DNA of 64,000 nucleotides. It comes from Auricularia sp. M13 (taxonomy: Eukaryota > Basidiomycota > Agaricomycetes > Auriculariales > Auriculariaceae). The stretch is from contig CM073194.1 in NCBI GenBank assembly GCA_037042915.1, positions 372,001-436,000 on the forward strand, in the 5' to 3' direction. Position numbers and translations under genes: made by a program. This document shows, one piece after another, positions 11,434-54,560 of this stretch; within the stretch, counting starts at the first letter, position 1; every line of letters begins with the position of its first letter. Under the pieces are notes generated by a model. That model saw only the letters and a program-made list of their open reading frames with translations, was not told where the DNA came from and did no database searches.

Positions 11434-12414
11434 ATGAAGGTAGCGGGTGGTGCCGGAACGGCCTATGGGACTTATGAAGAATACGGTGCGTCCCTCGAAC
11501 CGCCGCGACTTGCTGACGGTTGACCCCAAGGCGGTCTTGAAGTATCGTATTTCCCTCCTAACGCCTGGGCACCCCAACTTCCTAGCAACGCCTATCACGA
11601 TTTCTCGCATCACCTGACCAAAACTCCAGGCGCGTACTGTACCTTCACATTCACAGGTGCGCGTTCGCTGTGGTGGTGGTGGAGCGCGCACATTTTCCCA
11701 CCGGCGATGCAGGCAGTTCCGTGGCCTACTACTCCAGCAAGTATCGCGATCACGGCAACTTTACCATCGCTATAGACGGCATGGATGTCTTCACGGGAAG
11801 CTCATACAGTAGATCCTATGTCCTGCAAACGCCCCTGTTCAGCCAATCCGTCGCACCGGGTCGACACATTCTAACTGTCACCAACGCACAAAATGCAAGT
11901 GTCGCAAGCGTGGATTACTTCCTGTGCGTCTGGTCGTTGCTTGACCGTCACGGAAGCAGTGACTGACCATTCATAAAGATATGTCCCTCTACCTATTTCG
12001 TCGACATCAACTTCTCCGACGGAGGGAACGATTCGGCCGAGCAGCATTGTGCCATCTGGTCCTCCGCCTTTCAGCTCACAAACTGCTGCGCTCTCACCTC
12101 CCCATGATTTGGCCAGACGGCAAGCAAACCTGCCGCTGATCATAGGCATCGTGTGTGGTGCACTTGTGCTAATGGCGGCGGTCATGGCAATCTTCATCGC
12201 AAGAGTCAGAAAGGCAAAGCGGGAGAGGCAGGAGGAGCGAGTGCGAGCCTGGAGACAGGACTTCTGCGAGCATGACCCGACTCGGACGCAGGAGGCGCCG
12301 CCAGCGTATCCAGGGCAGCTATCCATCACTGACCCGAGAAAAGGGGGCGGCCGTCGCATTCCGGCCGCTGGCACGGGGGAATCGTCTAATATGCTGCTTG
12401 ATCTCTTATATTGA
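11434..12414 (+). CDS. Single-pass membrane protein, galactose-binding-like ectodomain, PPxY tail (member A)
   Basis: Four exons: 11434-11485, 11543-11656, 11713-11923 and 11979-12414, giving 270 aa. Intron phases are 1, 1 and 2, and every other readable member in the window has the same phases. Exons 2 and 3 encode the family ectodomain, with marks SYFPPNAW, TPGAYCTFTFTG, SVAYYSSKY, IDGMD and ending VDYFL. Exon 4 encodes a Ser/Thr-rich stalk, one helix (LPLIIGIVCGALVLMAAVMA) and a basic stop-transfer (RVRKAKRERQEER). The tail contains PPAY at 12298-12309. There is no signal peptide; the basic side follows the helix, so the N-terminus should lie outside. Beta-sandwich carbohydrate-binding folds of this kind are common in agaricomycetes, but the ligand is unknown. 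Exon 1 lacks the acidic DD motif of its relatives, so its start is the least certain part. Confidence 0.78.
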
Positions 12415-13757
12415 TGCAGATTGCGAACACGAAGGCTCCACTGCACCGTGTACGATGTACTATCTATACTTGTATCAGTTATTGAATCATTCAGGACCTC
12501 GAACGCGAAGCTTCTTTCGTCGAACTAAGACTGTCGCGCAGGTAAACGGGGTTCGGTCAAGGTCAGATTTCTGATGTAGAGGTGGCCCTGGATGATCGAT
12601 GATAAGCTAGGAATCTATTGGTGCATCTTCTTGGTCGGTCGACACCAGAGGTCGTAACGAAAATACCACAGCAGCCTTGTACCAATCTGTCCTTAATAGG
12701 ACCCGTGTGAGGCCACATCGCCCACATGTATACAGCCTATGGAGAGAGGTGATGGGGCAAAACTGTGCAGGAAGATGCGCTCTTACCTCTTGATGCAGGA
12801 CCGTGCCAGGGAGTACAGATCTTCCGTCCAGCAACGATATATTGCACAGACAGCACCGTGCAGGCTGAAGGTAGAGCAGGAAGGAGCACAAGGGACGACG
12901 TTCGCATGAGAATGCCTGTTGGTGTCGACGCGAGCGAACAGTGGCAAGGTTTCAGTGGAATACCGGAGACTTGACGCAACCCCACGCTGCAGCTGCGAAA
13001 TCAAGTCTCCCAGAGCTGAACATAGCGCCTCGATTCCTCCATCGCCATATTTTCACAGCCATCAACGTAAACGGTGAGGTATTATGTAGGCGTCGACTAA
13101 GGTTTGCGAGAGACCAGAACAGGCAACACTTCACACCGTCGGATAGGCGTTACTGGAGCAGCCAGGATTCGATAGCGGTATGCAGGTCTTTACGAAACAG
13201 TGCACAAGCATAGGGTCCGCGGACAAGGCAACCACTAGACGTTGCTCCGCGGTATTGTTATAGCGCCATACAAGCAGCGGCAACGACGATGGCCGGGCGT
13301 TTGACGTCGGTTTGGTTGGGAGCGCGATCGCAGACGGCGACCGCGATGACAGTGACGATTTTCTGGCAACGCGGGGAAACGACGGACTTTGCGGTGTGTG
13401 GAGGCAGCGGGCTGTTGAAAGGACCAACGAACCAAGGTTTCGGCACTTTTCGCTCTACACGACGAGCATTAGATTTCGTCCATCCCATTGGAGTCGCCGC
13501 TATCACGAATTTCGCGCACAGTGGTCGAACCTTTGAATATTGCTGCATCTCGGCTAATTTTGCTCTGAACCACGCTCCTACGGCCCCTAGTTGTTGCCGC
13601 GGCCCACGCTGCACGACTGCTTCTATCATCTTCGTTCACCGGACCCGACGATTGAGTCGCCCTTGCTCGCTGCTTTGCCTGTGCCGATTCTGGGTGTTTC
13701 ACGGATGAGTCTTGACCAGTGTCTGCGCGCACACCGCAACGCTACAGCAGCACCGCG
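12415..13757. other. No gene recognised
   Basis: Flank between member A and the hAT-like cluster. Only short overlapping frames are present, without motifs or convincing splice signals. Confidence 0.5.
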
Positions 13758-13765
13758 GACGCAAG

Positions 13766-14397
13766 TAGGGATGTAAACCGTCCCGTCGACGGGCGACGGC
13801 CGTCTCGAGACGGGCGGAGACGGGTACGGCCCGTCCCACAGACGGCCGTCTCACACGCAGTACGACGCATAGACGGGGGACGAGACGGGCTCGTCGGACG
13901 GCCGTCCGACGGGTTCGCACGGGACGGGTCAGAAAATCTCGCTGAGGCGGGCTAGCGCGTGTGCAAGGCCTCATGTGTGAGAAATGAGGGCCTTGGACCT
14001 GTTCCGGAGAGTCATATGTAAGTAAGAGGTTCTGTGCGACAGGAAACTGTCACTCACGGAGCATGATTGGACTGTAACAGGTCCCGACCTACGTCCGTGC
14101 GCATCGACGACGACGACTGCTCCTTGCCTTCCGGCGCCTGCTAGTCTATTGGTACCGTCCACGCGGTCTTGAGTCTATGCGAACTCACAACACTTCGTCG
14201 GTGGAGTGTATGGACACCGAACAACCCGTCAACCCGTCTGCCGGCCGTCGAAGCCGTCAGCGAGACGGGCTGGACGGGTTGCGCCCGTCCCGTTACCCGT
14301 ATCCGTCCTGGATGTCCAATGGCTTGGACGGGACGGGCTGGAACCCGTCCCGTCCGTCCCGTCTACACGGTTTGGACGGGTACGGCTTACATCCCTA
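13766..14397. mobile_element. Non-autonomous hAT-like element 1
   Basis: The 632-bp element starts TAGGGATGTAAACCG and ends in the near-complement (CGGCTTACATCCCTA). The 8-bp sequence GACGCAAG is repeated exactly on both sides (13758-13765 and 14398-14405). TAGGG-type ends with an 8-bp duplication are the hallmark of hAT transposons. Both subterminal regions are crowded with GACGGG/CCCGTC hexamers, as expected for transposase-binding repeats. There is no transposase frame. Confidence 0.9.
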
Positions 14398-15112: not shown

Positions 15113-15120
15113 GGTTCAAC

Positions 15121-22804: not shown

Positions 22805-23026
22805 GGTCGCTGTGAGTCCAAGAACGGGGAACTTGCGGTCGTCTCTGTGATCATCTTATATCGTCGGTTCCACGGTATCCAGGCACAATTCCGGTGACGT
22901 GTCCATTAATCCGTTTCGAACAGCAGCCCGGTGGACCTAAGGTGGACCCAATACAAAGCCTTGACGCTGACAGTTGCGACACTGATCCCAAACACCGAAT
23001 TCAATGTCCGCATTGTGCTCTTCGCC
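22805..23026. promoter_or_regulatory. Divergent intergenic region (shared promoter)
   Basis: 222 bp separate the proposed start codons of the minus-strand zinc-finger gene and the plus-strand F-box gene. Both promoters must lie here or in the first exons. No TATA box was clear. Confidence 0.4.
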
Positions 23027-24343
23027 ATGGACCGTCACCATCACGCGCCGATGCTTCCAGTCGAGCTGCTATCTACGACGTTCGACTCTCTCTCCATTAA
23101 CGACCTCCTGACCGCGTCCCGTGTGTCGCGCTTCTGGCACAGAGTCGCTTTCCGCCACCCGACCTTCTGGCAAGACATCACACTGGCGTGTCTGAGCCCG
23201 TCGGCAATCGACTTGTTTCTTGCTAGGCTGGATGCTAGCTCTTTTCAGAGCATTATCATCCGGATCAATCTCCCCGATACGCCCTTTCCAGCACACGCAC
23301 GCCCTATTGTTCTGGCATCGATTGCCCTCAACATGCATCGCGTCACGGGGCTACATTTCAAGGTCGAAATCGATGCGGACCTCGACGTCTGCGAGGTCCT
23401 GCGTCTACCTGCTCCTCGACTAACCACGCTGAACCTGTGGTTCCTCCATGGGACGCGGATGTCTGAGGCATTGCCCATCGACCTTTTCGCCGACTGCGCA
23501 CCGCGACTGCGGCACGTTCAACTACTGAATGTTCAACTATCGCCCGACTGTCTTCCTTCAGTGCTCTCCACCGTCGTTATATTGAGATATTTTTCTTACG
23601 AGGCGCAATCTTTACCTGCCGGCGTCTTTTCGCATTGCAAGGCGCTGCAGGAGTTGTCTATCTGGGGCAAACATTGCTCGCTCTCGGCGGACGAAGATGA
23701 AGCCTATGTTTTCGCAATCGAGAAGCTCTGCTTCTTGAACATGGCCGTGGTTTCGGGAAGTTTCAATGTCGTCCAAATGATGCCATGTGCGTCGATCCAG
23801 AACATGTTGGTGCCGCTGGTGGATTTGGAATCCGCTCGCCTGCTCCTGGACAACCTTCGTGGCCAGCTCGAAGTTCGATTGGACTGCACGGAGAAGGAAA
23901 TCCGCTTGCAGTATACCTCGCTCTCGACGAATATGGCACGCATCTTCCAGGGTCCACCAGCGCAGGCCGCCGTCGGGAAGCTACCTCGGGCCTACGTCAC
24001 GGACGACCTCCTCTCCCGCGTAACCTCAATCCACGCCTCGTGCGGCAGCGCGGATCTTCTATCCGCCTTCGCCTACCTGCCTTCGTGCTTGAGCGTCACC
24101 ATGACAGTAGCGGACAATGGCCAACTCAATGTGCCATCAATACCGCTGTACGTACCGGAACTGCTCGACGTCAGGATATCCAGCGCGAGCGAACACGTCG
24201 TGCACGTCGGAGCTCTATTTTCATTCCTCGACACTGCATTCCTCTCGGTATCACGAGTCGTACGAGTCGCGCTCGTTGGAGTAAAGCTCGATGGCGATGT
24301 CGCCACAGTACCGTGTGATCGCTTTGCGATCTCCGTCAAGTAG
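23027..24343 (+). CDS. F-box/LRR-type protein 1
   Basis: A single open frame of 438 aa from the first in-frame ATG (23027). The N-terminus is a degenerate F-box: MLPVELLSTTFDSLSINDL, then ASRVSRFWHRVAFRHPTFW. This is the usual agaricomycete pattern of a Skp1-binding helix followed by a Trp/His block. The rest is a series of Leu-rich units (for example LHFKVEIDADL, LTTLNLWFLHG and LRHVQLLNVQL), a putative substrate-binding solenoid. The expected role is adaptor in an SCF ubiquitin ligase; the target is unknown. A GTAAGT just after the stop suggests either a 3' UTR intron or an alternative last exon. Confidence 0.8.
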   Translation: MDRHHHAPMLPVELLSTTFDSLSINDLLTASRVSRFWHRVAFRHPTFWQDITLACLSPSAIDLFLARLDASSFQSIIIRINLPDTPFPAHARPIVLASIALNMHRVTGLHFKVEIDADLDVCEVLRLPAPRLTTLNLWFLHGTRMSEALPIDLFADCAPRLRHVQLLNVQLSPDCLPSVLSTVVILRYFSYEAQSLPAGVFSHCKALQELSIWGKHCSLSADEDEAYVFAIEKLCFLNMAVVSGSFNVVQMMPCASIQNMLVPLVDLESARLLLDNLRGQLEVRLDCTEKEIRLQYTSLSTNMARIFQGPPAQAAVGKLPRAYVTDDLLSRVTSIHASCGSADLLSAFAYLPSCLSVTMTVADNGQLNVPSIPLYVPELLDVRISSASEHVVHVGALFSFLDTAFLSVSRVVRVALVGVKLDGDVATVPCDRFAISVK

Positions 24344-24651
24344 AGGTAAGTATCTGATTAGTGCGTCATTCTCCTCTCACAGAGTATGGCTGAAGGCAAT
24401 AATTTCTTCCAGGCTAGTATCTCGGACCAGCTCGTCCGTCCACCGGTCCAAACTGTCCCAATGTAGTGGGCACCTGGCGAGTTGATTGCCCACCGCTATT
24501 TCGACTTCTCTTATCTACTATATTCGAGTGTTCATCCATAAGGTATCACATCATCAATCATATTCACGACGGGCCTAGTCTTCTCTACTGCGCGTGGGAT
24601 TGTTGGTCGGGCCTTGAACATTGATTTTGCGAGCACGAAACTGCATGCACA
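24344..24651. other. No gene recognised
   Basis: 3' flank of F-box gene 1. It contains possible spliced 3' sequence (acceptor-like CTCTCACAG near 24381) and no other support for a gene. Confidence 0.4.
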
Positions 24652-24655
24652 GTTC

Positions 24656-24958
24656 AACTCAAGCTCGTACCCAGCGGCTTGCACTCGTTCGTTCGCGTTA
24701 GGCATATCGGCGGTGAATGTAGTCGTGTAGATACAGGAGAAGACGGAGGAGCGGAATCAAACAAGGATCCGACGTTTAACCGAGAAGAGTGGGCGAAGAA
24801 CTTCGTGCAACAGTTCTTCGCCCACTCTTCTCGGTTAAACGTCGGATCCTTGTTTGATTCCGCTCCTCCGTCTTCTCCTGTATCTACACGACTACATTCA
24901 CCGCCGATATGCCTAACGCGAACGAACGAGTGCAAGCCGCTGGGTACGAGCTTGAGTT
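24656..24958. repeat. Perfect inverted repeat, two 147-bp arms, 9-bp spacer
   Basis: Arms 24656-24802 and 24812-24958 are exact reverse complements, separated by TCGTGCAAC. I compared them base by base and found no mismatch. Each arm holds, reading outward, an ATG-led frame beginning MPNANERVQAAGYELEF. In the right arm it starts at 24909 and runs on to a GTAAGT donor near 24984, so this may be a first exon; the left arm has the partial mirror copy. No flanking target duplication or transposon-like ends were seen. Confidence 0.95.
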
Positions 24959-25156
24959 CAACTACAAGCTCAGTTATCGACTCGGTAAGTCAGCTCGCGT
25001 GAAAATTTCCTATGACTCCACCATTTGCGCGAATGGCGGTTGCGCGTCGTCTTGTCTGACTGTCTTTTTCTGCGAATGTTTATCTGGGGGAAAACGGTTC
25101 ATTGGATATCAAACTCATAGGTAAATGACAGTTGTATTTCCTAGACATTGGAGTAT

Positions 25157-26122
25157 CTAGATGGGCGATTGCGGGACACACACGTAATGGGGAGGGCCCT
25201 CGAGATCAGGAGACGACTTGTACATCGGCGGCATGTCGAACAGCAACTCCATCTGGCAGACCTGTCTGCGCGCTCTCGCCAACATGACAATTGTAACGAC
25301 ACAGCTCACGAACAAAGCAAATACAAGCACGATGAGGGCGGGAACCGCGCAAGTCCCGCGCAGCGTTCCAGCTAGTGGACCGATTGCGTGAACAGGGAGT
25401 CCACTGGCTGGCGCAGGGGGCGCGAAGGCTGTGGAGCTACAAGGGAGATGTTTAGCCGGGATGAACGGAGTATACTTGGAAGGCTCAGGGCCTTCTCCCG
25501 TATAAATAGTCGGCGCTGTTGAAGGCTGCCCTCCTGCGCTGCGATACCTGCCGATATTGGGGATCAGCGTGGACATGACTACTGAACGCGACGCTGCAGC
25601 CCTACATACACGAAGAAGTCAACCCCCACAGCCAGACGCGTAGTGGGGTTTGCCGCGTTCGTAATGGTGAGCGTGTGCGGACCGGGAGACATGTGCGCGC
25701 TGAACAGCAGCCTTGGAGACCCGGACCAAGTGGGAGCGTAAGAAGTCCCCATCAAGCCTGGCCCATCGTCGATAGACGCTAGGAAGGCGCCGTGGTCGGA
25801 GTTGAGGTCGGCGTAGAAAGCAACATAAGTGCCTGAGAGCCTTGAGATTCAGCCTGGGGCATCAATTCCGGCCGACGCACCGGTGAACGAAAATGTCACA
25901 CTGGCACCCGGCGAGTAGGTGTAGTGGTATGACTGGTCATTGAATGAGGCGTAGAGACCAAGGTCGTGCGATACCATCAAGCCAGCGGGGAGAAAGACAC
26001 TGAAATACCGCACAATAAGTGCCCAATAGAACAGGAGCATTAATGCATGAATGCTCACCGTGGCCCTTGTCCTCATCGTCAACAATGATGTCCGGGCTGT
26101 TAGGGCTAAATGGGAGCTTCAT
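25157..26122 (-). pseudogene. Membrane-family member B, frame-disrupted
   Basis: All four family exons are recognisable: 26122-26059, 25999-25882, 25832-25610 and 25547-25157. Exon 1 carries the acidic motif IIVDDEDKG and exon 2 ends GASVTFSFTG. Exon 3 runs GTYVAFYADL to VDFFV, and exon 4 has the helix ALIVLVFALFVSCVVTIVML and a PPMY tail motif (about 25220-25231). Exon 2 has a length that does not keep frame with its neighbours. Compared with member C, its first third carries an indel, so the gene is probably inactive unless the sequence is wrong there. It is closest to member C (shared exon 4 start and GEGPEPSKYTPF-like stalk). Confidence 0.65.
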
Positions 26123-26973
26123 AACCAAGGGGCAACGAGTTACGCAGTAGGCCATAGATTCCCGATTCAGTAGCCTATAAGAGTCTCGGTCGCACTGCAC
26201 GCGACACGGGGCCGCTGCTGGGCGGCGATGGGAGCTGTCACAAACACGGAATCAGATAGTGTCTGAGCGATGTCAAGACGCTTGGTCAAGTGCATTCAGT
26301 TGTAGGACCTGATATACTGGTTGGCGAGCCCAGTGCATGAGCAATGAAGGGCGCGTGGAGCCAGTAGTCACGGATATGGAAATGTGTAATTGGCAAGCGG
26401 GGCACGACTGATACCCAAGCTGTCCGGGGAAAAGCAAGCGACTGAACCAGACGTATCAGGCACGTGGAATAAAGTAGCTTTAATGTGCGGCCGTGCGCAC
26501 AAGTACCAGGTGCAGTCAAGAATCGACGAATTTTGCGCCGGCACGCTGCTTGTTAGACCGACGACGAATCGTTGTTGACGCAGAATACTGGACAGCGGAT
26601 TCTCTGGCGGCTGCGCGTAGACAATAGATACCTCGGTTGACGAGTTTCAGCAAGGCGCTGCGCTTCAACAACCAGACTTTTTCTTCGGCAGCGAGAGAGG
26701 AGCAAGGGCGATTGCGGCCCGAAACTCCGACGATGATGACGGAGCCGTTGATCGCAATCAGCAGCAGCCTGCAGCCCAACTGCAACCTCTTTTATAGGGT
26801 ATTGGGTAGATTCAGAGCATGAGATTTTTCATTAGAGTCTCTGTGAGTTCCAGGGAGATATATTTAGGAAGATACAAAATGGGGATGTTGATGCAAATCG
26901 GCAGATCGTGACCTCGGTGGCATTGCGAACTGCAACTTCATCCCTCGGACCCGTCTGTGCGCTTGCGAAAGAA
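26123..26973. other. No gene recognised
   Basis: Spacer between tandem members B and C; presumably the promoter of B and the 3' flank of C. Confidence 0.4.
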
Positions 26974-27848
26974 CTACCAATGCAACCGCAATGCAAGAAT
27001 AACGCACACAAGACCGATTAGAGCGGGTGCTGTCACCTGCGGCGCTCCAGCCGAACCGTCGGCCGTGTGCGCAGGAAGTGCAGTATTATCCGGCGCAGGG
27101 CTCGAAAACGCAGTGTCCGTAAAGGTCGGCGCAGGGATATCAGAGGCAGGGTCCGTAGATGTAGCAGGCGGAGATGGAGGAGGGGTAAAGGGCGTATACA
27201 GAGCTGGTTCGGGACCGTCTCCGTTATAAATAGTTGGCCTTGTCGAAGACTGGTCTCCACTGCTCCTTGCTGCGCGATACCTGCCAGTGATGAAGGTCAG
27301 TAACTTTGTTCCGCGTGAGACACAGATGCAGCACATACACGAAGAAATCGATCCCCGTAGCGAGACGTGCAGTTGAATTTTGCCCATTCATGATGGTGAG
27401 AGTGTGTGAACCGGGGACGAGCTGCGTGTCGTAGAGAAGTCTCGGAGAGCTGGACCAGTTGGCAGCGTACGAGGTTCCCTGCAGTGCTGGCCCACCGTCT
27501 ATAGATGCTAGGAAGACACCGTGATCTGAATTAAGATCCGCATAATATGCAACATATGAACCTGAGCGTGTTCGATGAGAGCTCGATTTGTAGGACAATA
27601 TGAAGCATACCCGTGAACGCAAAGGTGACACTGGCGCCTGGAGAATATGTATAATGGTACGATTGATCTTGAAACGATCCGTATAAGCCAGCGTCGTGCG
27701 AGTCGGTCCAGTCGGTGGCTGATGAGTAGGACACTGCAATGCGAATTTTCAACGCGCAGCTCAGGCTGCAGTAAATGAAAATACATGACTGCGTACCAAA
27801 TGCTGTGTTCTCGTCGTCAACAATGATGTCGCGCCCGTCAGAGCTCAT
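26974..27848 (-). CDS. Membrane-family member C, truncated in the helix
   Basis: Exons 27848-27797, 27733-27611, 27561-27339 and 27280-26974 keep frame to a stop (234 aa). Marks are MSSDGRDIIVDDEN (exon 1), WTDSHDAGLYGSF and YHYTYSPGASVTFAFTG (exon 2), and SYVAYYADLNSDHGVF to IDFFV (exon 3). Exon 4 begins YRAARSSGD and has a Thr/Pro-rich stalk. The helix stops after ALIGLVCVILALRLHW. Reading another frame just beyond the break gives a basic tail similar to member B, so a one-base change inside the helix codons has probably removed the anchor and tail. As it stands the product would lack a cytosolic tail and any PPxY. Confidence 0.7.
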
Positions 27849-28248
27849 CTTCCGGACGTGCAAGGGGCAGCCACTGGTCCTGCATTCCCGTGTTGGAGTT
27901 TGTCTATAAGGCTTCTTCTGCACAGCATGTCACTCGGGGCCGCGCGGCTGCTGGGCGGCGATGGAAGCTGCGCAACAACACGGGTGGAATCACGGTCGGA
28001 GACTTCGAACAAGCGGGTCGGTAAACTGCTCCGTCGGGAGCGCTTGAGCCTGGAATGGTGCATGTCAGCCTGTGCGTAATAAGCTGCTAATGGATGCCGG
28101 GGTCGACGCGAAGCATGGCAGAAATGAAGCGATGACGGATAATGTGGCACGGGAGTGGAAGGAGTGATAATGTCCTGAACTTGCGCCGATAAATATTCAA
28201 GTATTACAGTAAGCTCGCCTTACATCCCAAATTGAGGCCGCTGGCAGA

Positions 28249-29219
28249 TCATCGGGTAGCTGTAACCTGAGTAACCCGATGTGCCTTTTTCGCATGTGGA
28301 AAAAAGCCGGTCTGGGCGCCAGGTGCCAGCACTGGGTCGGCGAGACTGGTGTTAGGGTAGGGCGGCGGGTTGTGCGGCACGAACGGCTGAATATTCGGGT
28401 CCAATGTCGCAGGAAGATGGCGCAGCAACTCTCTCTGGAGATCGCGCAACTGCTTCCGTGTCCTGAGAAGAAAGAGAGATGGGACGAGACAGCAGAGTGG
28501 GATAACCAGGCCGCATAGAAGCCCAATGACGAGATGAACCCTTGAGTACGGAATTCCGTGCGCAGGAATAACGCTGGGATCCGTGTGCACCGGCGATTGT
28601 GCGTTATCGGTCGGCGAGCAGTGTTGTGAGACCGTGAGCGGCTGATAGCTGCCGCACATGAGCAGTCAGTACTTATTAGCCCTGGACGCAACAGCAACAG
28701 CAGCCCAAGCGCACACAAAATAATCGACGCCCAGATGAGTCCCGTTGGGCGAGTTCACAATGGTGAGAAAATGCGGGCCAGGGGAGACCGTAGTGTCGAA
28801 GAGTTTCTGGGTCGGGATAAAGGACCCTGAGTTCGAGCTGCCCGTGCCGGCGGGACGACCATCGAGGTACATGGTGAATTCACCATGGTCCGGGTTGAGG
28901 TCCGAGTAAAACGCTACGTATGAACCTGAGAGATCCGTCGCATGAGTCCTCCGAAATGGTAATATGGGCAAATCAGTGCGGCATACCGTCGAAAGTGAAA
29001 TTCACAGAAGCTAATGCTCCAGTTGTTCCATGGTATGAATTGCCGTAGCGCGGGCCTACGGTAGAGTACTCCCATGCGTCCAAAGGAGAATATGATACTA
29101 GAGATATGCTCAGTTATATTGGATGCAATTAGGATAGATTCAAGGCGAGCCGCACCGAAGGTAGAGTTGTTATCATCTACAATCTCCTGATCACCAGAGA
29201 TGACGACAATTGAGCTCAT
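28249..29219 (-). CDS. Membrane-family member D, intact, PPPY tail
   Basis: Exons 29219-29156, 29097-28987, 28925-28715 and 28648-28249 give 261 aa without interruption. Exon 1 is MSSIVVISGDQEIVDDNN. Exon 2 has SYSPLDAWEYS, then GTTGALASVNFTFDG. Exon 3 runs SYVAFYSDLNPDHGEF to LGVDYFV, with an NGTH sequon just before. Exon 4 has a short stalk, the helix LVIGLLCGLVIPLCCLVPSLFLL, basic RTRKQ, and PPPY near 28357-28368. The short stalk (about 35 residues) is the main difference from members F and G. A TATTTAAG motif about 45 bp upstream of the start may be its TATA box. Confidence 0.85.
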
Positions 29220-36916: not shown

Positions 36917-38398
36917 CGAGCTTGGGGGGATGAGGGAGCTAGGAACATTCTGTTAGTGTCAGTCCGCTATTTCACTGTGTTGCCACCGACGTCGCGGAGC
37001 CGACCTGACTGATGATGCACGACACTAGCTGATCATCGATGTGCGCTGACCTTTCAACAGACTGCTGAGACGAAGCAAGCATTGCAATGTTCCGAGCTGA
37101 CCGATGATATACGAAACGAGCTGATCATCGACGTGCGCTAATTTTGTAGCAGACCGCTGCGACGAAGCAAGGGTTGAAGAAATAGCCGCAGGATTCCAGG
37201 TTTGCATCAGCAAAGACGCACAATACAGTAAGGCGACTGCAAGTGACCTACCCTATGCCTCGGACACGGAGCCCATGAGCAGCTTCGGTGAACCCGTCGG
37301 ACAGCGAAGATCTGCAGCGCCACGTCCAGACAATGAACTGCAGCGGCGGCAGCGGCGACTGAGCTGGTGATGAAGAAGCAGCCGCCGATTGAGACTAGAA
37401 GGGCACTGGAACGTAGCCGAGGCGCCGGAGGTAGTCTCTGCAGAAGTGTTTGCAATGTCCGATGCTGGCCAAGTTGAACTGTGCTCAAAGTGAGCCTCTG
37501 TCGCAGATAGTCCTGGAAACGCAGATCCACGGAGTTGCTGCGGCTGTCCGCGGCGACAGCATTGCGGCGGACGCTCATCCGCAGACGCCGGACTCCATGG
37601 AATCGGGATATGCAAAGCAGTGAAGAAGGGAACCCGAGCATTGATATTCTGCGCCAGAAACAACGGTCCAGTGTACGAAAATGATAGCTGAGTCGCTCGG
37701 AACAGGTGCGACGCCGCCGATCCCCATTCTGCTGCACAGCGCTAGGCGCTTTCGTACCGTGCTGCCGCTGGAGTCGTCTTGTAATGCAGCGCATCGACGC
37801 CAATCTCCATGAAGCGCACAGTGGGCAACATGGTGCGCGCACAAGCTTTGACCCGCGTCGCCGGTCACGGGAGGCGCTGTTGGTGCCTTCAAAACGATCT
37901 CCACAGATGTGTAATGCGGGTAAACCGCAGACAACGGGAGCGCATGGTAAGAATGGAAGCACATAAGATCTAGGGCTTCGCGCGGTCAAACAGCGGCAGA
38001 CGAATGGGTAGCGCGTGTAGTAGTAGTATTCAGATACGGGAAGAGACGAAGACCAGCCGCATCATGCTGCAAAACGAGAAGAGCAGTCGTGCCTCTAGGC
38101 AGTAACGGAGAGCTTGCATACTGCCGCCCGCGTTTTGGGCAGCAAGCGCAACACGTAGCAGGCAGTCGGTAGCTTGCGCCCGAGCGGGAGCATGACGGTC
38201 GGAGGCAGAGCGGTATCCGTGGCTGTGCGAGTAACATCAATTACCACCGCGTTGACAAAGAGCAGACTTTCGCGGACTGTTTCAATCCAATCTCATCCTC
38301 GCGAACGCTTACCCGAGTGAAATTTCGATTGAATGAAACTGAGATGAAAGGAGATGGTTCTGTACAGGTTTACTGCGGAGACATCCTAGTAGTAATAC
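36917..38398. other. No gene recognised with confidence
   Basis: Minus-strand frames at 37207-37989 overlap in all three phases and hold a Ser/Thr-rich patch and an Ala-rich hydrophobic patch. These vaguely recall the stalk and helix of the membrane family, but no ectodomain motif or intron pattern is present. I cannot support a gene. Confidence 0.35.
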
Positions 38399-39457
38399 TT
38401 ACAGAGTGCGTGATATCCTCTTGAAATCCACTGTCCGGCTGTTGCTTGATGCGGGTACCGTGGTAACACTGGGATTGAGAGAGAAAGGCGCTATCGTCGA
38501 CTCTGCTTCCGCCGCATCGGTCATCCGGGCCTCGAAGGCCAAACCTGGATAGGGAGGTGGACTCTCATCGCGCAGACGTCCCAGCCGTCTTTCTCGCAGT
38601 TTAAGAAAGGCTACCAAGGCTGCGACACAGCCGAACACCATACAACACGCGAGGGCGATGAGCGCGGCTACGGATGCTGATACGCGGCTGGGGCGCGACG
38701 CAAAGGAATGTTGTGGCACGGCTGAGGTGCGCGGCGCAGGCTCCGCCAGTGTGGGAGTAGGATTAAATGTGAATGTTCCAGTTGAATCATGATTTGGGTT
38801 TGAGCTCGACGCGGAGGGATGGTTGTCGGCATTGTCAGAGGACGTTGTCGAAGCTGGAATAGTAGTGTTGCCCTCCAGTGGCCGATACCTAGGATTGTAA
38901 ATCGCGTACAGCGCGATTTAAGCAACTGAAGGGGTCCTCAAGCTCGACCACCCACGCGAAATAGTCCAGGCCCATAGACGCGCCGTCCCGCACATTCGTA
39001 ATCGTGAGCGTATGTCGTCCCGCGGACAAATCAGTGTAAAACAGCAATCGGGGTCCGTCCGACCACCTCGCAGAGTACGAAGATGCATTCGTGGGTGGCC
39101 CGCCGTCCACGGACGCGAGGAAGAGGTCGTGATCGTAGTTAACATCCGAGTAATATGCCACATATGTTCCTGCCGCCTGAGTCAGCACTCGCAAAATCTA
39201 GAATGTGTCTCACCGCTGAATGCAAAGCTGATGCGAGCACCCGCGAGCGTCGTGACATGGTACGAGTCGCCATGGTACGAGGCATACAGCGATCCACCGC
39301 CCGTCTTCCATGCGTCGTCTGGGGTATAAATAACTACGGAATAGATTGATCGACGTGCCACACGCAGCCGGCGAGCAGCATCTGAAGATGATTGCGCACC
39401 CACGGATATATCGCTGTCGTCCACTAGAACGAGATCGCCCACGGCTTCCGAGCTCAT
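38399..39457 (-). CDS. Membrane-family member F, intact, PPPY tail
   Basis: Exons 39457-39400, 39333-39214, 39169-38956 and 38888-38399 give 293 aa without interruption. Exon 1 is MSSEAVGDLVLVDDSD. Exon 2 has IYTPDDAWKTGGGS and ARISFAFSG. Exon 3 runs TYVAYYSDVNYDHDLF, with SVDGGPPTNASSY, to LDYFA. Exon 4 has a long Ser/Thr/Asn/Pro stalk, the helix SVAALIALACCMVFGCVAALVAF, basic LRERRLGRLR and PPPY (38549-38560). A LINE tail sits about 110 bp upstream of its start codon. Confidence 0.85.
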
Positions 39458-39564
39458 GGTTAGGTATGACTGCGAGTGCCCGCAGTCGCTAAGCAGTTCA
39501 AGAGACCGCAGGGCGAGGTTTGTACGGTTATGAGGGATCCGCAGAGAGGACCAAAGGGTTCGGT

Positions 39565-40152
39565 GAGCATTATCACGCAGCTCAGAACAGGCCACGTTCA
39601 GCTCAACAAGCACCTAGCTCGCATCAACCGAGCAGACAGCGCACTATGTCCTTGCTGTGTTGGAGCTGCGGAGTCGGTGCGACATTACGTTCTGGAGTGC
39701 CCGGCTCATTCGCACGAGCGCTGGGAAATGAGAACGCGAGTAGGACGCGACGGTGGAAAGCTATCGACGCTGCTTTACACGAAGCGGGGAATACGCAGTC
39801 TGCTGCGCTTTGTAGCAAAGACGGGCCGCTTTCGGTCAACACACGGTATGATTTCCATTGAGCATTGAGTAGTTTCACATCTCTCTCTTTACAGGAGCCG
39901 CAGCGACGTACCGAATCAGCAACAAAGTAGTTGCCAATCACCCGCCTGTCCGCCGCGAGCCTGTCATGCGTACGTACAGCATGGCACTGCGAACGGCATT
40001 TGAGGCATGCCTCCGAGCACCGGCGGCTGATTATAATGGGGACGCCCTGATAGAAACCTATATATGTGATTTTCAAGCAACGTAATCTCTGATGTAAATG
40101 TCCACATAGGCTTCGCCTCATGGACAATATATGATAATAATAATAATAAAAA
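39565..40152 (+). mobile_element. 5'-truncated LINE (non-LTR) fragment with poly(A)-like tail
   Basis: The frame encodes the C-terminal end of a LINE ORF2: QLRTGHVQLNKHLARI, then CPCC...A...SVRHYVLECPAH, the CCHC-type motif downstream of reverse transcriptase. The 3' end is a (TAA)n run and then A8. The 12-mer AAAGGGTTCGGT occurs just before (39553-39564) and just after the tail (40153-40164), as expected for a target-primed insertion. Only about 590 bp is present, so it is dead on arrival. The upstream in-frame codons back to 39476 are probably host flank. Confidence 0.75.
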
Positions 40153-40164
40153 AAAGGGTTCGGT

Positions 40165-41663
40165 ACCGCCATGATATAGTAAGTGTCCACCAAAGCATTA
40201 CATAGGTACGAGGCTGACCAGGGCCTTGTATCGCCAGAAAGTTTGAAATGTGGGTCTTCCGCTCGTTACGCAGCTAGATAGTCATGATATTGTATCACGG
40301 CGAGCGAAGCATTCACGTTCCCATTGAACGACAAGACCGCAGCATGATGAATCGAGATCAGAGGCAGTCGGGCGGATTTCAAGGAGAAAGAGATTGGTGG
40401 AGGGATTTATGCGTGGCGCACTGCCAGATACGCACGCAATCGAGTTTGAAACCGCCTGGCAGTGAACCGTGATCAAATGCACAGCAGCACAGGCTCGCAC
40501 TAAGGTCCCGATGGGACGCGAGCAGCAGATCTTCATGTCCAGGACACGAGAATGAATCACAACATAACAATGCCAGAGGACTCTGGGAAGACCTCGGGGG
40601 GGTGGGGGATCAAGAACATGCTGAGACTGCTCGGGCTGCAGAAACAGTTTCGAACTGAGCAGTAGCCTATCTGCCAGAGAATAGAACATGATGCATTTCA
40701 ACCTCCGAGCAGCCGGCGACTGATGAAGCTGGGTAACGTTCGCTGTCCAGTCCAGACTCCAGATACGATTCAACCAGCCGAGACTCCAGATACGATCCAT
40801 CGGCCGGCTTTTGTTAAGTACGTACGCCGTGTATACCTAGCAGCAAACAAGCGCAACAAAATCGTGCAGGAACCAAATGAGGGCGCACAGGCAGAGCGTC
40901 TGTACCAGAAAGCCAGGGTCCGAGAACGACATCGATTCGATTGAAATGACAACTGAGCGGCAGGCAGGCCAACGCTAGGAGCGACATTATTCCAAGACAT
41001 TTTGGAAGGTCTGTGCGGTGTATAATGGATTACACTCGGCGGCGACCTTCTAACTGCTGCTGAGGCCCATGAGCGCCGAAGGAGAAGTCAGAAGCGGAGT
41101 TGGATTTACCATCAACGCCGCTGTATCATACCGTGCCCGCCGCGCAGCCTGTTCCCATTACTAATGTACTTGAGGGACCCTCGTATCCTAGGCCGTGCTT
41201 CCAGTCCGTCGTTTTCTAGTACGCGGCATTGCGTGCGCTTTTATCGACTGTAGGCACAGGATCACCGTAACCCCTGCGCCGCAGAGTCGTCTACGGATGG
41301 CAGCTCGAAGAGGACGTCCTATTGTCGACGTCCCCTCGCTGCCGGCGCCTGTGACGTCATCCAGGCATTATTTTCCTGGGCTTCAAGGTGCATCGGCCTT
41401 CAAGTCCTATCTCCTCGGGGTCGGACCTCGCACCGACAACGTTTTTGCATGAGCACTGAGCAGCCAAGACTGACATGAGCACTGAGCCACTGTACAGTAC
41501 CAACGCTGATCCGAAATTGTTCCGGATCTCGGGATAGATTTGCTTCGGATCAGTCGAAAAGTTTTCTGCCTCCGCCCTCGCCTTGGCCGCACTCATCCGC
41601 CTTTTTCCTGCCCGCTGACCTCCCGTGCTACCCGGTTATCGAACACGCGGTCTTTCAGTGCTG
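40165..41663. other. No gene recognised
   Basis: Contains a short direct repeat (ACTCCAGATACGAT at about 40758 and 40784) and no convincing frame or RNA gene. Confidence 0.45.
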
Positions 41664-43184
41664 ATGTCGAGCAACCCTCACGGCAACGGGAAGGACCCGG
41701 TTCGTGTTGGCCAGAGCGACAACGAGGATGACAGCAACCCACCACCAAGATCTCGACCGCGAAGCCGCACTCTCGGCATATCTGGCAGTATCCCATGGTG
41801 TCCACGACCTGCCGTACCCGTGCTACGCCCTGGATCACCCATGGTGGTTGATACATTCCCCGTGGCTGCTCCAGTCCCTCCTTCAGCCGCGCCAGACCTT
41901 CCGTTCGACGTCTTGACGATAATCTTTCAACTATGGCATGCTATGGAATACGACCGCGTGGATGCACCGTACAGCGTGGTTCCTTTCCGTGCTGGCGGCG
42001 TCTGTCGTTCGTGGCGGGAGGCTGCGCGCGACACACCACGCTTGTGGACTCGGGCGACATTCAACTTTCGACGCATGCAGGGCAGAGGCTCCTGGCGTGC
42101 ATACCATGCCGCTCATGCGACATGTGCAGGCGGGCATGAGTACGATGTCTACCTGGACTCTAACCTCGTTAAAATCTCGAAATCGGACCCCATTTGGAGA
42201 TTATTTCGCGAGCGCATCCTCCCGCGTGCGCGCAGCATCCTCATAGAAGTCCGCTTTGAGGGCTCCGACGAGGATATCCTATCTGGATGCTTCCTTCCCT
42301 CTCTTCGAAGGCTGGAGATTTCCGCGAGCCGCCATTTTCATTATGTGCCGGCTGTGCTCTTGCATTTCGATGCGCCACTAATCACCACTCTACAAACCAG
42401 CTTTGTGTCTCCCAGCCAGCTGGACTCCCCGCCACCGGGAGACCCCTTTTCCATCATCGCGAAATTCGATTGTGCCTTTTCGACCGTTTCGCTGGGCGAT
42501 TTGGAATGTTTCATGCAGGTTTTCGCATCCTTGCAAGAACTTAGGCTCTCCCTACAGCTTTTCGAAGCGTCCCCTAATGCGCCTCTCATTTGGTCCGGTC
42601 TGCGAAGATTGACCATTGATACGGTAGTGCTTGATGCCGACCATCTCCGCGGTCAGCTTTATTTCCCGGACCTGGAAGAACTAGCGGTCAGAGACGATCC
42701 GGACCACTGGGCATTCTGGGCCCTGCTCATCGAGCGCCAATGCCCTGCGCTAACATCTCTGGTGGTACTCCGCAACCACCAAGACAATGCAGCGCCCTTC
42801 GTGGAGCACATGGCCGGTCTGTCATGCATCCGAACTCTCGTCTTCCGCGCAGGAAGCATGAACAACGACCTGCTTGATCTCCTCGTTGGCGACGACGCGA
42901 CCAGATGCCAAATATTCCCGAGCTTGGACACCCTCATATTCGAGGACACTGTTCCGCGGTCCGACATCGATCTTGTACGCATCTGGAGCCTCATTTACTG
43001 GCGGAATAACGATATCCGCGAACGCGGATCCAACCCAAACTTCAGGATTGCATGCAGCACGCGGCGCAGAGACCCCGATGGCGCGGAGAGCAGAGATGAG
43101 GACAGCAGGCGCGCGGAGCTCGAGGAGATCGTTGCCGAGATGAGTACGTTCCTGGCTGAGCAATATTTCCGTCTGTTCAAATGA
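41664..43184 (+). CDS. F-box/LRR-type protein 3
   Basis: An open frame of 506 aa from ATG 41664. The disordered, Ser/Pro/Arg-rich N-terminus (about 75 residues) is followed by an F-box (PDLPFDVLTIIFQLWHAMEY, then VCRSWREAARDTPRLWTRATF). This is the canonical agaricomycete LP-x-E/D...W-R...TP-LW layout. A long Leu-rich region follows (LRRLEISASRHF, LQELRLSLQLF, LRRLTIDTVVL and LEELAVRDDP). The C-terminus is a charged helix (RRAELEEIVAEMSTFLAEQY). It is presumably an SCF adaptor. It is the longest and best-preserved F-box gene here. Confidence 0.85.
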   Translation: MSSNPHGNGKDPVRVGQSDNEDDSNPPPRSRPRSRTLGISGSIPWCPRPAVPVLRPGSPMVVDTFPVAAPVPPSAAPDLPFDVLTIIFQLWHAMEYDRVDAPYSVVPFRAGGVCRSWREAARDTPRLWTRATFNFRRMQGRGSWRAYHAAHATCAGGHEYDVYLDSNLVKISKSDPIWRLFRERILPRARSILIEVRFEGSDEDILSGCFLPSLRRLEISASRHFHYVPAVLLHFDAPLITTLQTSFVSPSQLDSPPPGDPFSIIAKFDCAFSTVSLGDLECFMQVFASLQELRLSLQLFEASPNAPLIWSGLRRLTIDTVVLDADHLRGQLYFPDLEELAVRDDPDHWAFWALLIERQCPALTSLVVLRNHQDNAAPFVEHMAGLSCIRTLVFRAGSMNNDLLDLLVGDDATRCQIFPSLDTLIFEDTVPRSDIDLVRIWSLIYWRNNDIRERGSNPNFRIACSTRRRDPDGAESRDEDSRRAELEEIVAEMSTFLAEQYFRLFK

Positions 43185-43657
43185 TTCTCGTGATGTACTG
43201 TATTCTAGCTGTACTTTAGGGCTGCCCGTGTAGGCTGACTGCGTATTCTTTCCGTTGCTTCATTGACTGCAGTACCGCCTTGGATGGAGTAAGCCGCCGG
43301 TGAATTTGGACTTCATGCCACTAGTGAGCATCACCTCATGGATGTTATTCACTCTGAAAAACAAACGCCCAATAATCGACCTTTATCCCCCAAAAAGATT
43401 GAGCAAAGCGGGGGGGTTGCGACGGATGTTGGGCAAGTTGGAATTGCAATCGACTATGGCTGATCGATGAGAACCAAACTCAGCGTTCGAGCAGGATCAG
43501 GAACATGTCCATCTCTGGTGTCAATCATGTCGAACAGCCCTTCACCTAGCGGCAGTCCGGTACCGAAGGACTGTCGGCGACTATGCAGAAAGTTTCAGCG
43601 GAATCATTCTCCATTCTCTCTACTCCTTCAAGCTGCTCCCATACGCCGAAGTAGCCG
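43185..43657. other. No gene recognised; promoter side of member G
   Basis: Intergenic DNA between F-box gene 3 and member G. An upstream frame overlapping the start of member G is out of phase with the family exons. Confidence 0.4.
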
Positions 43658-44787
43658 ATGCCCAATGACATTGAGGATATTGTCGTTGAGGACGACAATT
43701 TCTCGCATGGTGCGACTGACGCGGCCATCTTCTCCCATCACTGAATGTACTGTATCACCCAGTATCGTATTTTCCGTCGGACGCCTTCGCATACGGTCAA
43801 GGGCCCAGCCAATCAATGTTCCGCAGCAACTCTTACCATGTAACGCACACCGCTGGGGCCTATATTCAGTTCACTTTCACTGGTACGATCGTCCAACCCG
43901 TCAATTGCGTTACAACTTAATGACGACGATCCGACAGGAAATTATGTAGCTTACCACTCTGATTTCAATTACGATCACGCGGACTGCTCCATCGCTATTG
44001 ACGGGCACCAGGTCGGGACGGCCAACTCGTACGCGCCGAAATGGACGTCGCCCAGCACGAAGGCACTCTTCGCCTCTAGTCTCGTGTCTGGATCGCACAC
44101 TGTCATTATCACCAACCCAGCCAATGGAACCTACATGGGACTGGATTACTTCATGTACGCGGCTCCGAGTCTCAGTTCCGTGTTAGACCGTTAACATCAC
44201 GGTCCAGCTATCGCGCGGCCGCGGTTGCGCTTCCGAGTACCAGTAACCCTGCTTCGTCGCCCCCTCATTTCCCGTCGATTTCCACCGTCTCCGTCTCCAC
44301 TGTTCCGCAGGCCCCCAGCGATGTTTCCACGGCCCCGTCTAGCGCCACCGATTCTCCCTCGCATCCGGCGCAATCGACACCCGAAACCGCTGTCAATGAT
44401 GGCGCTACTGTCAGCGTCACGATAACACCAACACTGCCAGCTGCAGCAACGGCGAGTACTGGCGCGCGCAACGGGACGGTATTTCTCATCGCAGGAGTCG
44501 CGTCCGGCGTCTCCGTGGCACTGTGCTGTCTCGCCGTGCTCGGATTCTTCTGTCTGCGTCGGGCGAGGAAAAAACGGACCGCAACGCAGCGACCAATTCT
44601 AGATTTCCCTGAGGCGCCGCAGGAACCGCCGCCCTATACGGAGAGCTCGACCCCGTCCGATCAGCATTGGCAAGACATAGCCGATTCTCGGCGGTACTTT
44701 CCATCTGAATCCATGTCGGTTATATCCACGAGACTCAGCCTCACAGCATCCCCTACAATGGCCTCGGAGAAGCGGCGTGGGATCTAG
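43658..44787 (+). CDS. Membrane-family member G, intact, PPPY tail
   Basis: Exons 43658-43709, 43763-43882, 43938-44154 and 44208-44787 give 322 aa without interruption. Exon 1 is MPNDIEDIVVEDDNFSH. Exon 2 has SYFPSDAF and HTAGAYIQFTFTG. Exon 3 runs NYVAYHSDFNYDHADC, with IDGHQVGTANSY, to MGLDYF, preceded by an NGTY sequon. Exon 4 has the longest stalk (about 100 Ser/Thr/Pro residues), the helix VFLIAGVASGVSVALCCLAV, basic RRARKKR and PPPY (44626-44637). It is convergent with GH76, 3' ends 215 bp apart. Confidence 0.87.
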
Positions 44788-45001
44788 AAGCAATTGTTCC
44801 TCACTGGCTTATTTGCTCTTATAAGTAAGTTATGAACTGTGCAGACGGTAGCTCGGGAACCTCCTAGGGAGAATGCACAGTAGTCATGTCACGGTTTTAA
44901 TCGTCGTACGAATTTATTCTGAATTGCTAGAAGTACAGGACGTACGGCGTAATACACTGCTGTTGGCGCAACAACACGCGACGGCGGAGGAGAGCGGGAC
45001 A

Positions 45002-46721
45002 TCACCGAACCCAGTTGAACTCGATGCCGGCCACGAAGAGGTCCAACACGTTCATTTGCCCGGACTGAGACTCTGGACGTCAACGGTCAGAAATCGCCTG
45101 CCTCATCGGATTGATAGACTCACTCGTGTAGGGACCTTTCCATACCACCCCATAGTGTCCGTTGCCATCAGTATCGGACGTGGTCACGGTCTTGTACTGA
45201 GAAAATGCGTCAGCACGGGTACGTTCAGGTTCAGGAGCGCGGGAGACACACGTTGATGTTGATGTAGCGATGAAGCAGCGCATTGAGACCTGAGTTCCCG
45301 AACTCGCGGCGCGCGACCTCAGTAAGCGCGCGAATGTAGATGGCTGACAGCAGCATGTCCGACGTCAATGCTGTACGTGTGGAAAGGGAACAAGTATGCG
45401 CACCCTTGAACTGGCGCCCATCGCCGCCCTGCGTCGGATCGCCATCCTGACCCTCGGTGATGTGCCCTTGGCTGTCCTGCCAGTTGGTCACGCGGGTGAC
45501 GGCATCCACAATGGTCGTGAGTGCCTGGTCTCTGTATTTTCCATCCCCGGTAATCTGGGACAGGATGACGGCGCCCTCGACGAACTTGCCCGTGTTGTAT
45601 GTGAAGATCCAGTTGTTCGCCGAGCAGGTGTCGATGCCCATCCCATCCGTCGGGATGTTGGGGTTCGCCTGGAAGAGCTGCGTCGTGATGAAGGTATATG
45701 CGTTCTTCGCAGCATCGATGTACTTCTGCTCCTTCGTCGTTTCGGCACTTGAGGAAAGTTCGGGTCCTCAGCCGGATAGTGAAGCTCGAGAGCGACGAGA
45801 TGGGACTCACAGGTAGGCAGAAAGCGTCTGGAAGAGCGCGGTTGTGATGACGTTTACGCCCATATCCGTCTTGTCGCTCGACTCAGACCGCCAAAAGACA
45901 GCTGCAACGTTTGTAAGTACGCTCTGGCGCACGCAATGAGCTATTCAGTCTCACCACCCGCAGTTGACTTGTTGTTGCACGTAGAGCGAATTGCTTTCGA
46001 GCGAACAGCCGACTTGCCGGCTGCCGCCTCCGCCGCGGTGATCTGCCTAAGAACGAGCGTCATCGGAACGAATTATCCGAAGTATAGTAACCGGAGGACG
46101 CACGATCTCTGGACCCAGTTCCACACGTCCTTGGCGTACTGCAGGAATACCTGGTCGCCGTAGGCGCGGTAGGCATAGAACGCGGTCGTTCCCCACCACT
46201 GCGCGTCATCGTTGTATCCTGCGCCACGTTTAGCGGAACACGATCACAGGAAGCCCGGGTGGCAACGACCTCATACCATATGGGTCGAAGTTGGAGTTAT
46301 GCTTCTTGGCAGCAGCGAGCGCGGTCTTGACGAAGTCGTAGTTGTCCCTCGTGCTCGCTACCATGTCCTTGTATGCGAACGCACCCAGAGTCGTGCCAGT
46401 GGTCCATCCCCCTGACGAACCGACAGCTTCAACACAGCTCTACGCAGTAACACAGAGAGCAGTACGCACAGTCTAAGTTGTTCGCGTCCTTCCAGTAGTC
46501 AGCCTTGAGGTTGTTGATTGCTGTCCGAGCTATGTTGTTGATATAATCGTAGCCTCCCGTGATCGTAGCATCCTACGAATCTACTTTCAGCACATCAAGA
46601 CCATGAACAGTAGCGCAGGGCGTACAGGCCAAGCAGAGGGAATGGTGTAGTTGGGTGCTCTGGCCTGGATAGCCGTGCCCGAGACTTGTGCAGCACTGGT
46701 TAAGATGCGCGGAAGGTGCAT
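45002..46721 (-). CDS. GH76 alpha-1,6-mannanase / endo-mannosidase-like protein
   Basis: Ten exons in frame: 46721-46626, 46572-46470, 46411-46277, 46218-46104, 46046-45955, 45901-45811, 45747-45404, 45343-45252, 45196-45124 and 45072-45002. The product is about 403 aa. GH76 enzymes act on alpha-1,6-mannan and, as yeast DCW1/DFG5, in cross-linking GPI proteins to cell wall. The catalytic block YNDDAQWWGTTAFYAYRAYG carries the paired Asp. Also present are GCC-type family parts (STCNNKSTAGAVFWRSE), IDTCSANNWIFTYNTGKFVEG and the C-terminal MNVLDLFVAGIEFNW. The N-terminus (MHLPRILTSAAQVSGTAIQA) is only a weak signal peptide, and no GPI signal is visible. No frame break was found. Confidence 0.85.
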
Positions 46722-52695: not shown

Positions 52696-53396
52696 CTAAA
52701 CGTCGCCGCCGAGTCCTCTCTTCCGCTCGCAGCGCAGCTTGGCCATAATGAGCGCGGTGACGACCACGAGGTCGAGCATGTCCGCGGCATCGCGGTCCAC
52801 ATGCAGCGTCCATTGCTCGTAGTATCCGCAGCGGAAGACTGCGATCGGTTTGGGCTCGTTGCGCCTGTACAGCTGCGTTGCGGAGTCCGAGTCGTGTCAG
52901 AGAGATACCTACATAGCAGGGCCAGGCATGAGACGCACGTTGAGAGACTGCAGCGGCCAGTCGCGCCAGACGTAGGGCACGCCGTGGTTGACGAACGTCC
53001 GCGAACTACGCACAAGAAGATCAGTCAACTTGCGAGCGAGAGAAAGTAAACGTCGAACGGGACGTACTGCGCATACCACCGCTCGCGCGGCATGAACGCG
53101 CCGAGCTCCTTCTCGCAGTGCTCCTCGCCGGACTCGCAGACGCACACCTGCTGGCGGCGCCAATGGACGCGCACGACGGGCACGCATTCCGACGCGTGCT
53201 CCGCGTCGTCCTCCGCGTCCGTCTCGTGATAGAAGCTCAGCGAGTCGTGGTAATGCGCGGCCGAGTCGTGCACGGGCAGGTGCTTCGCGATGAGCGTCGT
53301 GCCCTGCGCCGTGCGCACGCTGAACGCCGGCGCGTCCGGGTCGAGCGAGAAGAGCGTCGTGTGCAGCGGGTCCGGGAACGTGAATGCGAATTGCAT
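52696..53396 (-). CDS. DUF6593-family protein
   Basis: Exons 53396-53077, 53005-52939 and 52872-52696 give 187 aa in frame. The order fits basidiomycete DUF6593 proteins. First come FTFPDPLHTTLFSLDPDAPA and a beta-strand-rich middle with TLIAKHLPV and PVVRVHWRRQ. Then FMPRER leads into SRTFVNHGVPYVW, and AVFRCGYYEQWTLHV leads into the family C-terminal helix (ADMLDLVVVTALIMAKLRCERK). No signal peptide or helix anchor, so a soluble intracellular protein of unknown function. A broken paralogue lies at 57.7-59.0 kb in the opposite orientation. Confidence 0.8.
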
Positions 53397-53631
53397 CTAC
53401 TGTTGCTGTATTCGATTTGATACTGGTTGGGGGTGTGTTTTGCTGCACATGTGGGCGGGAGGAGCCAGGCTTTTAAGCTGCCTCGCTGGAGCCTGGCTGA
53501 GCCTGGAGGCGGCTGCGAGATGGTTACGTAATAGTCGGGTGCTGCGGCCGATCCGTCGTGCATCACCCAAAATAGGAAAGAACTGTTCGCTATTCTTTCG
53601 CAGCTGGCTGGAAGCTGGAAGCTTGGAAGGA

Positions 53632-54560
53632 TCATGACAACGAATCGCGACTCAGACCCTGAGGCCTGCTATCCGGACTTTGCAGCCCGAAAAGACACAC
53701 GACGTCCTTTATCGAAGCTCTTCGAGTCATCGGCTGGAGATGAGGGCACAGCGAGGCGTCTGTATCCCGCTGCCTCCTCCTCCTTGCAAAGACCGTCACG
53801 GCGAGGAGGAGCAGGATCCCAGGATGAAGGCCGCGATGTTCGCCCCTCGGCCTGCGAGCGGACGGCGCGAGTCTGAGTCTCCCGCCGGCGACTCGAACGA
53901 ATCCGTTTCTTGAGATCCTGAGCGGGCGCACAATAGAGTATAGTTTTTTTAGCCAACAATTTTGGAGAAGGGACCGCAAGAACGGAACGGATACTTACAC
54001 ACAAGAAGTAATCGACGCCCTACCCGTCCACACGCCGTCCGAGTCGGATCAGCGGATTGACTGCGAAGGCAGACGCGTACCAGCTGCCAGTGTGCGTGCC
54101 GCGCGGCGTGGTCGTAAGTACGAGTAGTACGCGACCCAGGAGCCTGCAGCATGCGATCTCAGATCTCAGTGGTAAACTCGGGAGACAATTCAGAGTTGCG
54201 AGTTGACTAGATTTGCGAGGTTGCCGGCTGAGGACGCGCGAGTTGCAGCTGCAGATACCAGATAGTTTAATTAGGGATGTGTGAGACAGATATAGATGGA
54301 AATTCGAACGCACCGTTACACGCGAACGCCGGCATGGGGGCGAGTGAGTCTGAGTAGTCTTCCTCACACGCGTTCGGCGGGAAATACGAGCCTGCAGGCG
54401 CGCGCTTCCAATTCGAAGAAGTGCAGTGGGAAAGCGTACCGTCGTCAGCCTGAGCACGTCCTCTGGCGCGGTCATCCGAGTCCAGTCCAGACTCCAGGAA
54501 AAAGTGAGCGAGGGGCGAAGATGAAGAGGATGAACGTTGAGCGACGGAATGAACGGTAGC
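53632..54560 (-). pseudogene. Membrane-family member H, decayed
   Basis: Pieces in family order: SYFPPNACEEDYSD (exon 2), GSWVAYYS (exon 3 start), VDYFLCV followed by a GTAAGT donor (exon 3 end, about 54000), then a helix-like ILLLLAVTVF with basic RRRRQRD. Most of exon 3 is missing or scrambled. No tail PPxY and no continuous frame remain. Confidence 0.65.

Follow-up and report, generated by a model that had tools for sequence, protein, structure and literature searches.

An island of predicted single-pass membrane proteins in Auricularia sp. M13 belongs to a dispersed family with a retained but optional PPxY tail motif

The window analysed here is a stretch of 64,000 nucleotides of the Auricularia sp. 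M13 genome (C2:372001-436000; the genome has 52.1 Mb in 14 contigs, cited below as C1, C2 and so on). It contains an island of eight paralogous genes, A to H, for predicted membrane proteins with one helix, and a PPxY motif stands in the tail of most of them. The eight copies proposed in the initial annotation were all located, seven as readable members and H as a remnant. A search of the window with exon peptides recovered the seven readable members, including C at 27.3-27.7 kb. The splice models were built from genomic sequence and member comparison alone.

Four members, A, D, F and G, look undamaged. Member A (11434-12414, + strand) was read from a motif scan and its splice sites, with exons at 11434-11485, 11543-11656, 11713-11923 and 11979-12414 and a PPAY at 12298-12309. 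Member D (28249-29219, - strand) has exons at 29156-29219, 28987-29097, 28715-28925 and 28249-28648 and a PPPY at 28357-28368. Member F (38399-39457, - strand) has exons at 39400-39457, 39214-39333, 38956-39169 and 38399-38888 and a PPPY at 38549-38560. Member G (43658-44787, + strand) has exons at 43658-43709, 43763-43882, 43938-44154 and 44208-44787 and a PPPY at 44626-44637. Complete coding models were assembled for A and G, and D was assembled up to the stop codon. The F model is in parts, with exons 1 and 2 joined and the remaining junctions taken from splice-site scans.

The other four are damaged or read less simply. Member B (25157-26122, - strand; exon 3 at 25603-25836) carries a PPMY at 25220-25231, as had been noted, plus a PPHY at 25184-25195, and its exon 2 is thrown out of frame by one base near 25978. 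Member E (35947-36916, - strand) has exon 2 in 36709-36828, exon 3 in 36423-36644 and the helix and tail in 35947-36219, with a PPPY at 36031-36042; stalk and helix stand in different frames, which only an unusual acceptor would join. The loss of frame or tail reported for C and H was also found. In C (26864-27848, - strand; first exon 27795-27848) the ectodomain exons are open in 27609-27740 and 27332-27565, the frame is lost in the helix, and PPRS replaces the PPMY of B. Member H (recognisable pieces at 53996-54392, - strand) is a degenerate remnant with pieces of exons 2 and 3 only.

Loci sampled from two parts of the window, at 24.1-40.8 kb (24106-40839) and 42.3-45.7 kb (42261-45658), are found again on this contig at a distance of about +229.46 kb. 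The second copy has no substitutions relative to the window and six insertions or deletions of 1-2 bases. One of these lies in B exon 2, where the otherwise identical second copy has no frame break; the frame change of E is present in both copies. No second copy of A was found in six protein searches of the genome. The second copy is either a duplicate made by the assembly or the product of a very recent duplication, and its six genes were excluded from all counts.

Members A to G share a common exon plan, a predicted beta-sandwich domain and one helix with basic residues on its C-terminal side, consistent with the basic stop-transfer described initially. Exon 1 is short; its acidic stretch reads IVDD in D, VLVDD in F and VEDD in G and is missing in A. 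Three introns, of phases 1, 1 and 2 in that order, separate exon 1, exon 2, exon 3 and the last exon. Exon 2 ends in FTFTG or similar, exon 3 ends in DYF or FF, as the initial annotation had it, and the last exon encodes the stalk, the helix, the basic residues and the tail. Stalk length does vary widely (53 residues in A, 69 in B, 38 in D, 75 in F and 90 in G). The claim that all readable members share intron phases 1, 1 and 2 holds at all three junctions of A, D, F and G, and the junctions read in B (second and third), C (second) and E (second, and the first by eye) fit it too. Where splice sites scored alike or were missed by the scan (the first acceptor of A; the third of A, D and B), the site matching other members was picked, so the phase agreement is partly built in.

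The family extends far beyond the island. Not counting the seven window members and the six second copies, the six protein searches, with matches merged by hand, gave 29 further loci at E ≤ 0.001: 12 on C8, six on C1, five more on C2, three on C3 and one each on C4, C9 and C10. These counts, from single-protein queries, are lower bounds, and two adjacent pairs on C8 (at 2158k and at 2511-2512k) could each represent a single two-domain gene. Weak places above E 0.001, on C2 (4504, 4528 and 4592k), C7, C9 (2075k), C10 (80k) and C11, stand outside the family count. The island is therefore one cluster of a dispersed family. At C3:2567-2568k, C9:2349-2350k, C10:3000-3001k, C8:2158k and C8:2511-2512k, two ectodomain matches lie on one strand with about 0.1-0.6 kb between them; these are perhaps tandem-domain members. 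In the accessible parts of the literature searched, no paper was found that joins PPxY with Agaricomycetes or names this family.

The ectodomain matched no Pfam family above cut-off. CE2_N was a recurrent match below threshold, reaching E ≤ 0.1 in 11 of 14 members (best E 4.6e-5), and the first member scored 23.9 bits against a cut-off of 27.9. Sequence searches of the PDB gave nothing below E 0.025, the value at which a profile search hit 3nqh, together with one weaker match. Structure prediction, which the initial annotation had proposed, was run with AlphaFold2 on B, read through a short intron, plus 12 exon fragments of other members. It returned an all-beta ectodomain at only medium confidence (predicted local distance difference test, pLDDT, 69.8; predicted template modelling score, pTM, 0.64). 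The top Foldseek match was again 3nqh (E 1.9e-4), the sole match at E ≤ 0.001. The next matches, with E from 1e-3 and query template modelling (TM) scores mostly of 0.4-0.6, include MiXBM, a glucanotransferase and entries of the carbohydrate-binding module (CBM) families CBM6, CBM35 and CBM36 (E 2.5e-3 to 8e-2, query TM 0.42-0.56 for the CBM entries). These matches are loose, and unrelated beta-sandwich proteins occur further down the list. The medium-confidence model of the ectodomain loosely resembles carbohydrate-binding modules. In exon 3, nonsynonymous divergence (dN) was lower than synonymous divergence (dS) in all 21 pairs. The pairs with the lowest dS were A/G (dN 0.63, dS 1.13), A/E (0.29, 1.19) and B/C (0.19, 1.29), and dS exceeded 1 in every pair, near saturation.

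The tail comparison covers 28 genes with a readable helix and tail, of which six belong to the window and 22 lie elsewhere. Broken C and H were left out along with the duplicates, as were C2:613k (91% identical to C2:368k over 2.2 kb), C1:4612k (a near copy of C1:1030k), four genes with no secure helix (C8:2158.35k, C8:2158.97k, C8:2512k and C1:6806k), the fragment C2:615k and C1:4038k. E, with its frame change, and B, with its upstream frame break, were retained because helix and tail read openly. C6:2373k was retained despite an ectodomain match of only E 0.037-0.07. The least secure tails are those of C4:242k and C1:6710k.

The predicted orientation is likely N-terminus outside and C-terminus inside. 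At least three lysine or arginine residues occur in the 12 residues past the helix in 26 of the 28 tails, against 0-4 before it; the exceptions are C2:368k and C1:6710k. A set of 14 ectodomains contains more glycosylation sequons than expected (22 against 11.8, P 0.002), with no excess in the 28 stalks (9 against 11.8) or the 28 tails (5 against 5.3). The distant paralogue C3:2043k has, by eye, a signal-peptide-like start before the same type of domain. Since A, D, F and G lack an evident signal peptide, the predicted topology rests on the basic flank and the sequons.

A six-frame scan of the window (segments of at least 50 residues) gave 15 PPxY matches, seven of which fall in members A, B (two), D, E, F and G. 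The tail motifs claimed initially, PPPY or PPAY in A, D, E, F and G and PPMY in B, are thus present. Across the family, 12 of the 28 tails have PPxY, where shuffling each tail with its composition kept predicts 1.02. With LPxY, which was included only after the tails had been read, the count is 15 of 28 against 1.46. Outside the window, PPxY occurs in 6 of 22 tails (0.88 expected) and either motif in 9 of 22 (1.24 expected; nominal P 2e-7, a shuffle P that is too small, as paralogues share ancestry and are not independent). The distance from helix to motif ranges from 12 to 149 residues. The distant paralogue C6:2373k reaches a PPAY through a plausible 51-base intron, which would make it the sixteenth tail; in C3:2651k and C3:2043k a PPxY is reachable only through weaker introns. 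The initial annotation held that the family could be defined by PPxY. This did not hold, because 13 of the 28 tails have neither PPxY nor LPxY, and C2:368k stops right after the helix with a tail of four residues. These results indicate that PPxY/LPxY is a retained yet optional part of the family, and that the predicted ectodomain, rather than PPxY, defines it. They also show a short motif persisting in tails that otherwise change.

A second tail pattern, hydrophobic-x-P-F-x-hydrophobic/P at 27-38 residues past the helix, was found in 8 of 29 tails where 0.47 would be expected, with one tail added for that test and the pattern picked after the tails had been seen. It occurs in 1 of 28 stalks (0.22 expected), and plain PF is present in 12 of 29 tails (6.8 expected). 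The pattern is a lead only. Its carriers are D, F and paralogues on C8, C1, C10 and C6.

Candidate partners for the PPxY tails are encoded in the same genome. Domain searches found a C2 domain, three WW domains and a HECT domain in this order on one strand at C4:1529945-1532594 and at C1:8075876-8078405. Both loci are known from domain matches only, with the C2 domain a partial match at each, and by domain order they are NEDD4/Rsp5-like. Twelve WW domains scored above cut-off, six of them outside these two loci. A motif above compositional expectation in a probably cytosolic tail is found together with NEDD4/Rsp5-like ligase loci in one genome. Two such loci are seen here, compared with one such ligase in yeast.

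Our preferred reading, held at about an even chance, is that these are lectin-like surface proteins docked to a NEDD4-type ligase. Each protein would place a CBM-like beta-sandwich outside, followed by a Ser/Thr/Pro-rich stalk, a single helix and a short Arg-rich tail inside. The PPxY or LPxY in about half of the family would act as a docking motif for WW domains and recruit one of the two NEDD4/Rsp5-like ligases. Ubiquitylation of the receptor or of a bound partner could then set its endocytosis and vacuolar sorting, by analogy with yeast Sna3. Specificity, perhaps for a glycan, would come from the outer domain, and the repertoire would be renewed as copies duplicate and decay. The initial annotation had proposed receptors or cargo adaptors coupled to ubiquitin or WW-domain signalling; the PPxY excess in the tails, its recurrence in distant paralogues and the encoded WW partners support this within the genome, while the coupling itself is what we infer. 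A broader form of the proposal is tentative and rather doubtful as a whole: a genome-wide fungal repertoire of duplicating lectin-like receptors without signal peptides, which would pass outside recognition to NEDD4-type ligases through interchangeable tails of two motifs ([P/L]PxY, and hydrophobic-x-P-F-x-hydrophobic at 27-38 residues from the helix).

Several yeast membrane proteins with PY motifs dock to Rsp5, among them Bsd2, Tre1, Ear1 and Ssh4, and to our knowledge none has a CBM-like outer domain. In animals, the single-pass PY proteins PMEPA1, LDLRAD4 and PRRG have one helix, a short PY tail that recruits NEDD4-type ligases and other outer domains. Unlike the yeast PY proteins, the island family is a large paralogous set with varied stalks. 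The predicted beta-sandwich of the ectodomain loosely resembles CBM6, CBM35 and CBM36, and CE2_N is its recurrent Pfam match below cut-off; in contrast to these, it sits on a membrane stalk rather than an enzyme, and its sugar binding is putative. Little is known of the surface receptors with which fungi sense sugars or other cells. The present family, dispersed and variable in its lectin-like outer part but with a putative ligase-docking tag that is retained, would offer a concrete, testable candidate set, with the two NEDD4-like loci as defined partners. A precedent is yeast Sna3, a membrane protein whose PPxY binds the WW domains of Rsp5 and directs endosomal sorting (PMC2171029).

Several points weigh against docking of lectin-like proteins to a NEDD4-type ligase. 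Apart from the modest fold evidence, the near-saturated dS, the dependence among paralogues, the late inclusion of LPxY and the tails without either motif, the tails are poor in lysine (2.3%). PY motifs are also common, with PPxY in 11.7% of human proteins (PMC8509885). PPxY was absent from all 28 stalks, but 0.5-0.7 were expected, so this is uninformative; a control with hydrophobic open reading frames outside the family in the retrieved DNA yielded only eight cases, none with the motif, too small a number to be useful. Members A, D, F and G begin directly before the domain, with no evident cleavable N-terminal signal peptide of a classical type I membrane protein. In a simple hydrophobicity scan rather than a dedicated predictor, the 700 bases upstream of D, F or G contained nothing resembling the start of a signal peptide; upstream of A there were just two such starts, overlapping each other at a distance of 644-680 bases. 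The long N-terminal domain would therefore need an unusual membrane-crossing route.

This lack of an evident signal peptide in A, D, F and G favours a reversed topology, in which the beta-sandwich would be cytosolic and the tail lumenal or outside, but the basic residues on the C-terminal side of the helix, the sequons in the N-terminal domain and the start of C3:2043k make such an arrangement highly improbable. It is similarly very unlikely that PPxY is a functionless by-product of proline-rich tails and common descent. The tails do contain 11.9% proline, the window members share ancestry, and the other 8 of the 15 PPxY matches in the window sit in unrelated frames; however, shuffles that keep composition give 1.0-1.5 motifs where 12-15 are seen, which disfavours a chance origin, and the excess persists outside the window.

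The remaining alternatives accept the motif and differ in what it does. It might be a turnover tag, the outside role being unrelated (wall adhesion or structural) and the NEDD4-type ligase only removing the proteins. About half of the family has no motif yet keeps the remainder of the protein, and yeast Sna3 uses PPxY for its own sorting; nothing speaks directly against this explanation, which we regard as possible if on the unlikely side, although the second recurrent tail motif, chosen post hoc, hints at a wider docking platform. Finally, the tail could bind a WW protein other than a ligase, through which the receptors would signal. The six WW domains outside the NEDD4-like loci provide such partners, but the six top-scoring ones are those of the two loci, though score is uninformative on specificity, and we judge this version improbable.

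Other genes lie in and around the island. Proteins with Pfam F-box-like matches at or above cut-off are interspersed among the membrane-protein genes, at 22910-24337 (+), 34202-35326 (-) and 41619-43178 (+). Retroelement-like frames adjoin the island at 1308-9062 (-), with integrase zinc-binding and RNase H matches above cut-off and a gag-type protease below it. Just past H, at 55557-56924 (+), a LysM protein with two LysM stretches is encoded.

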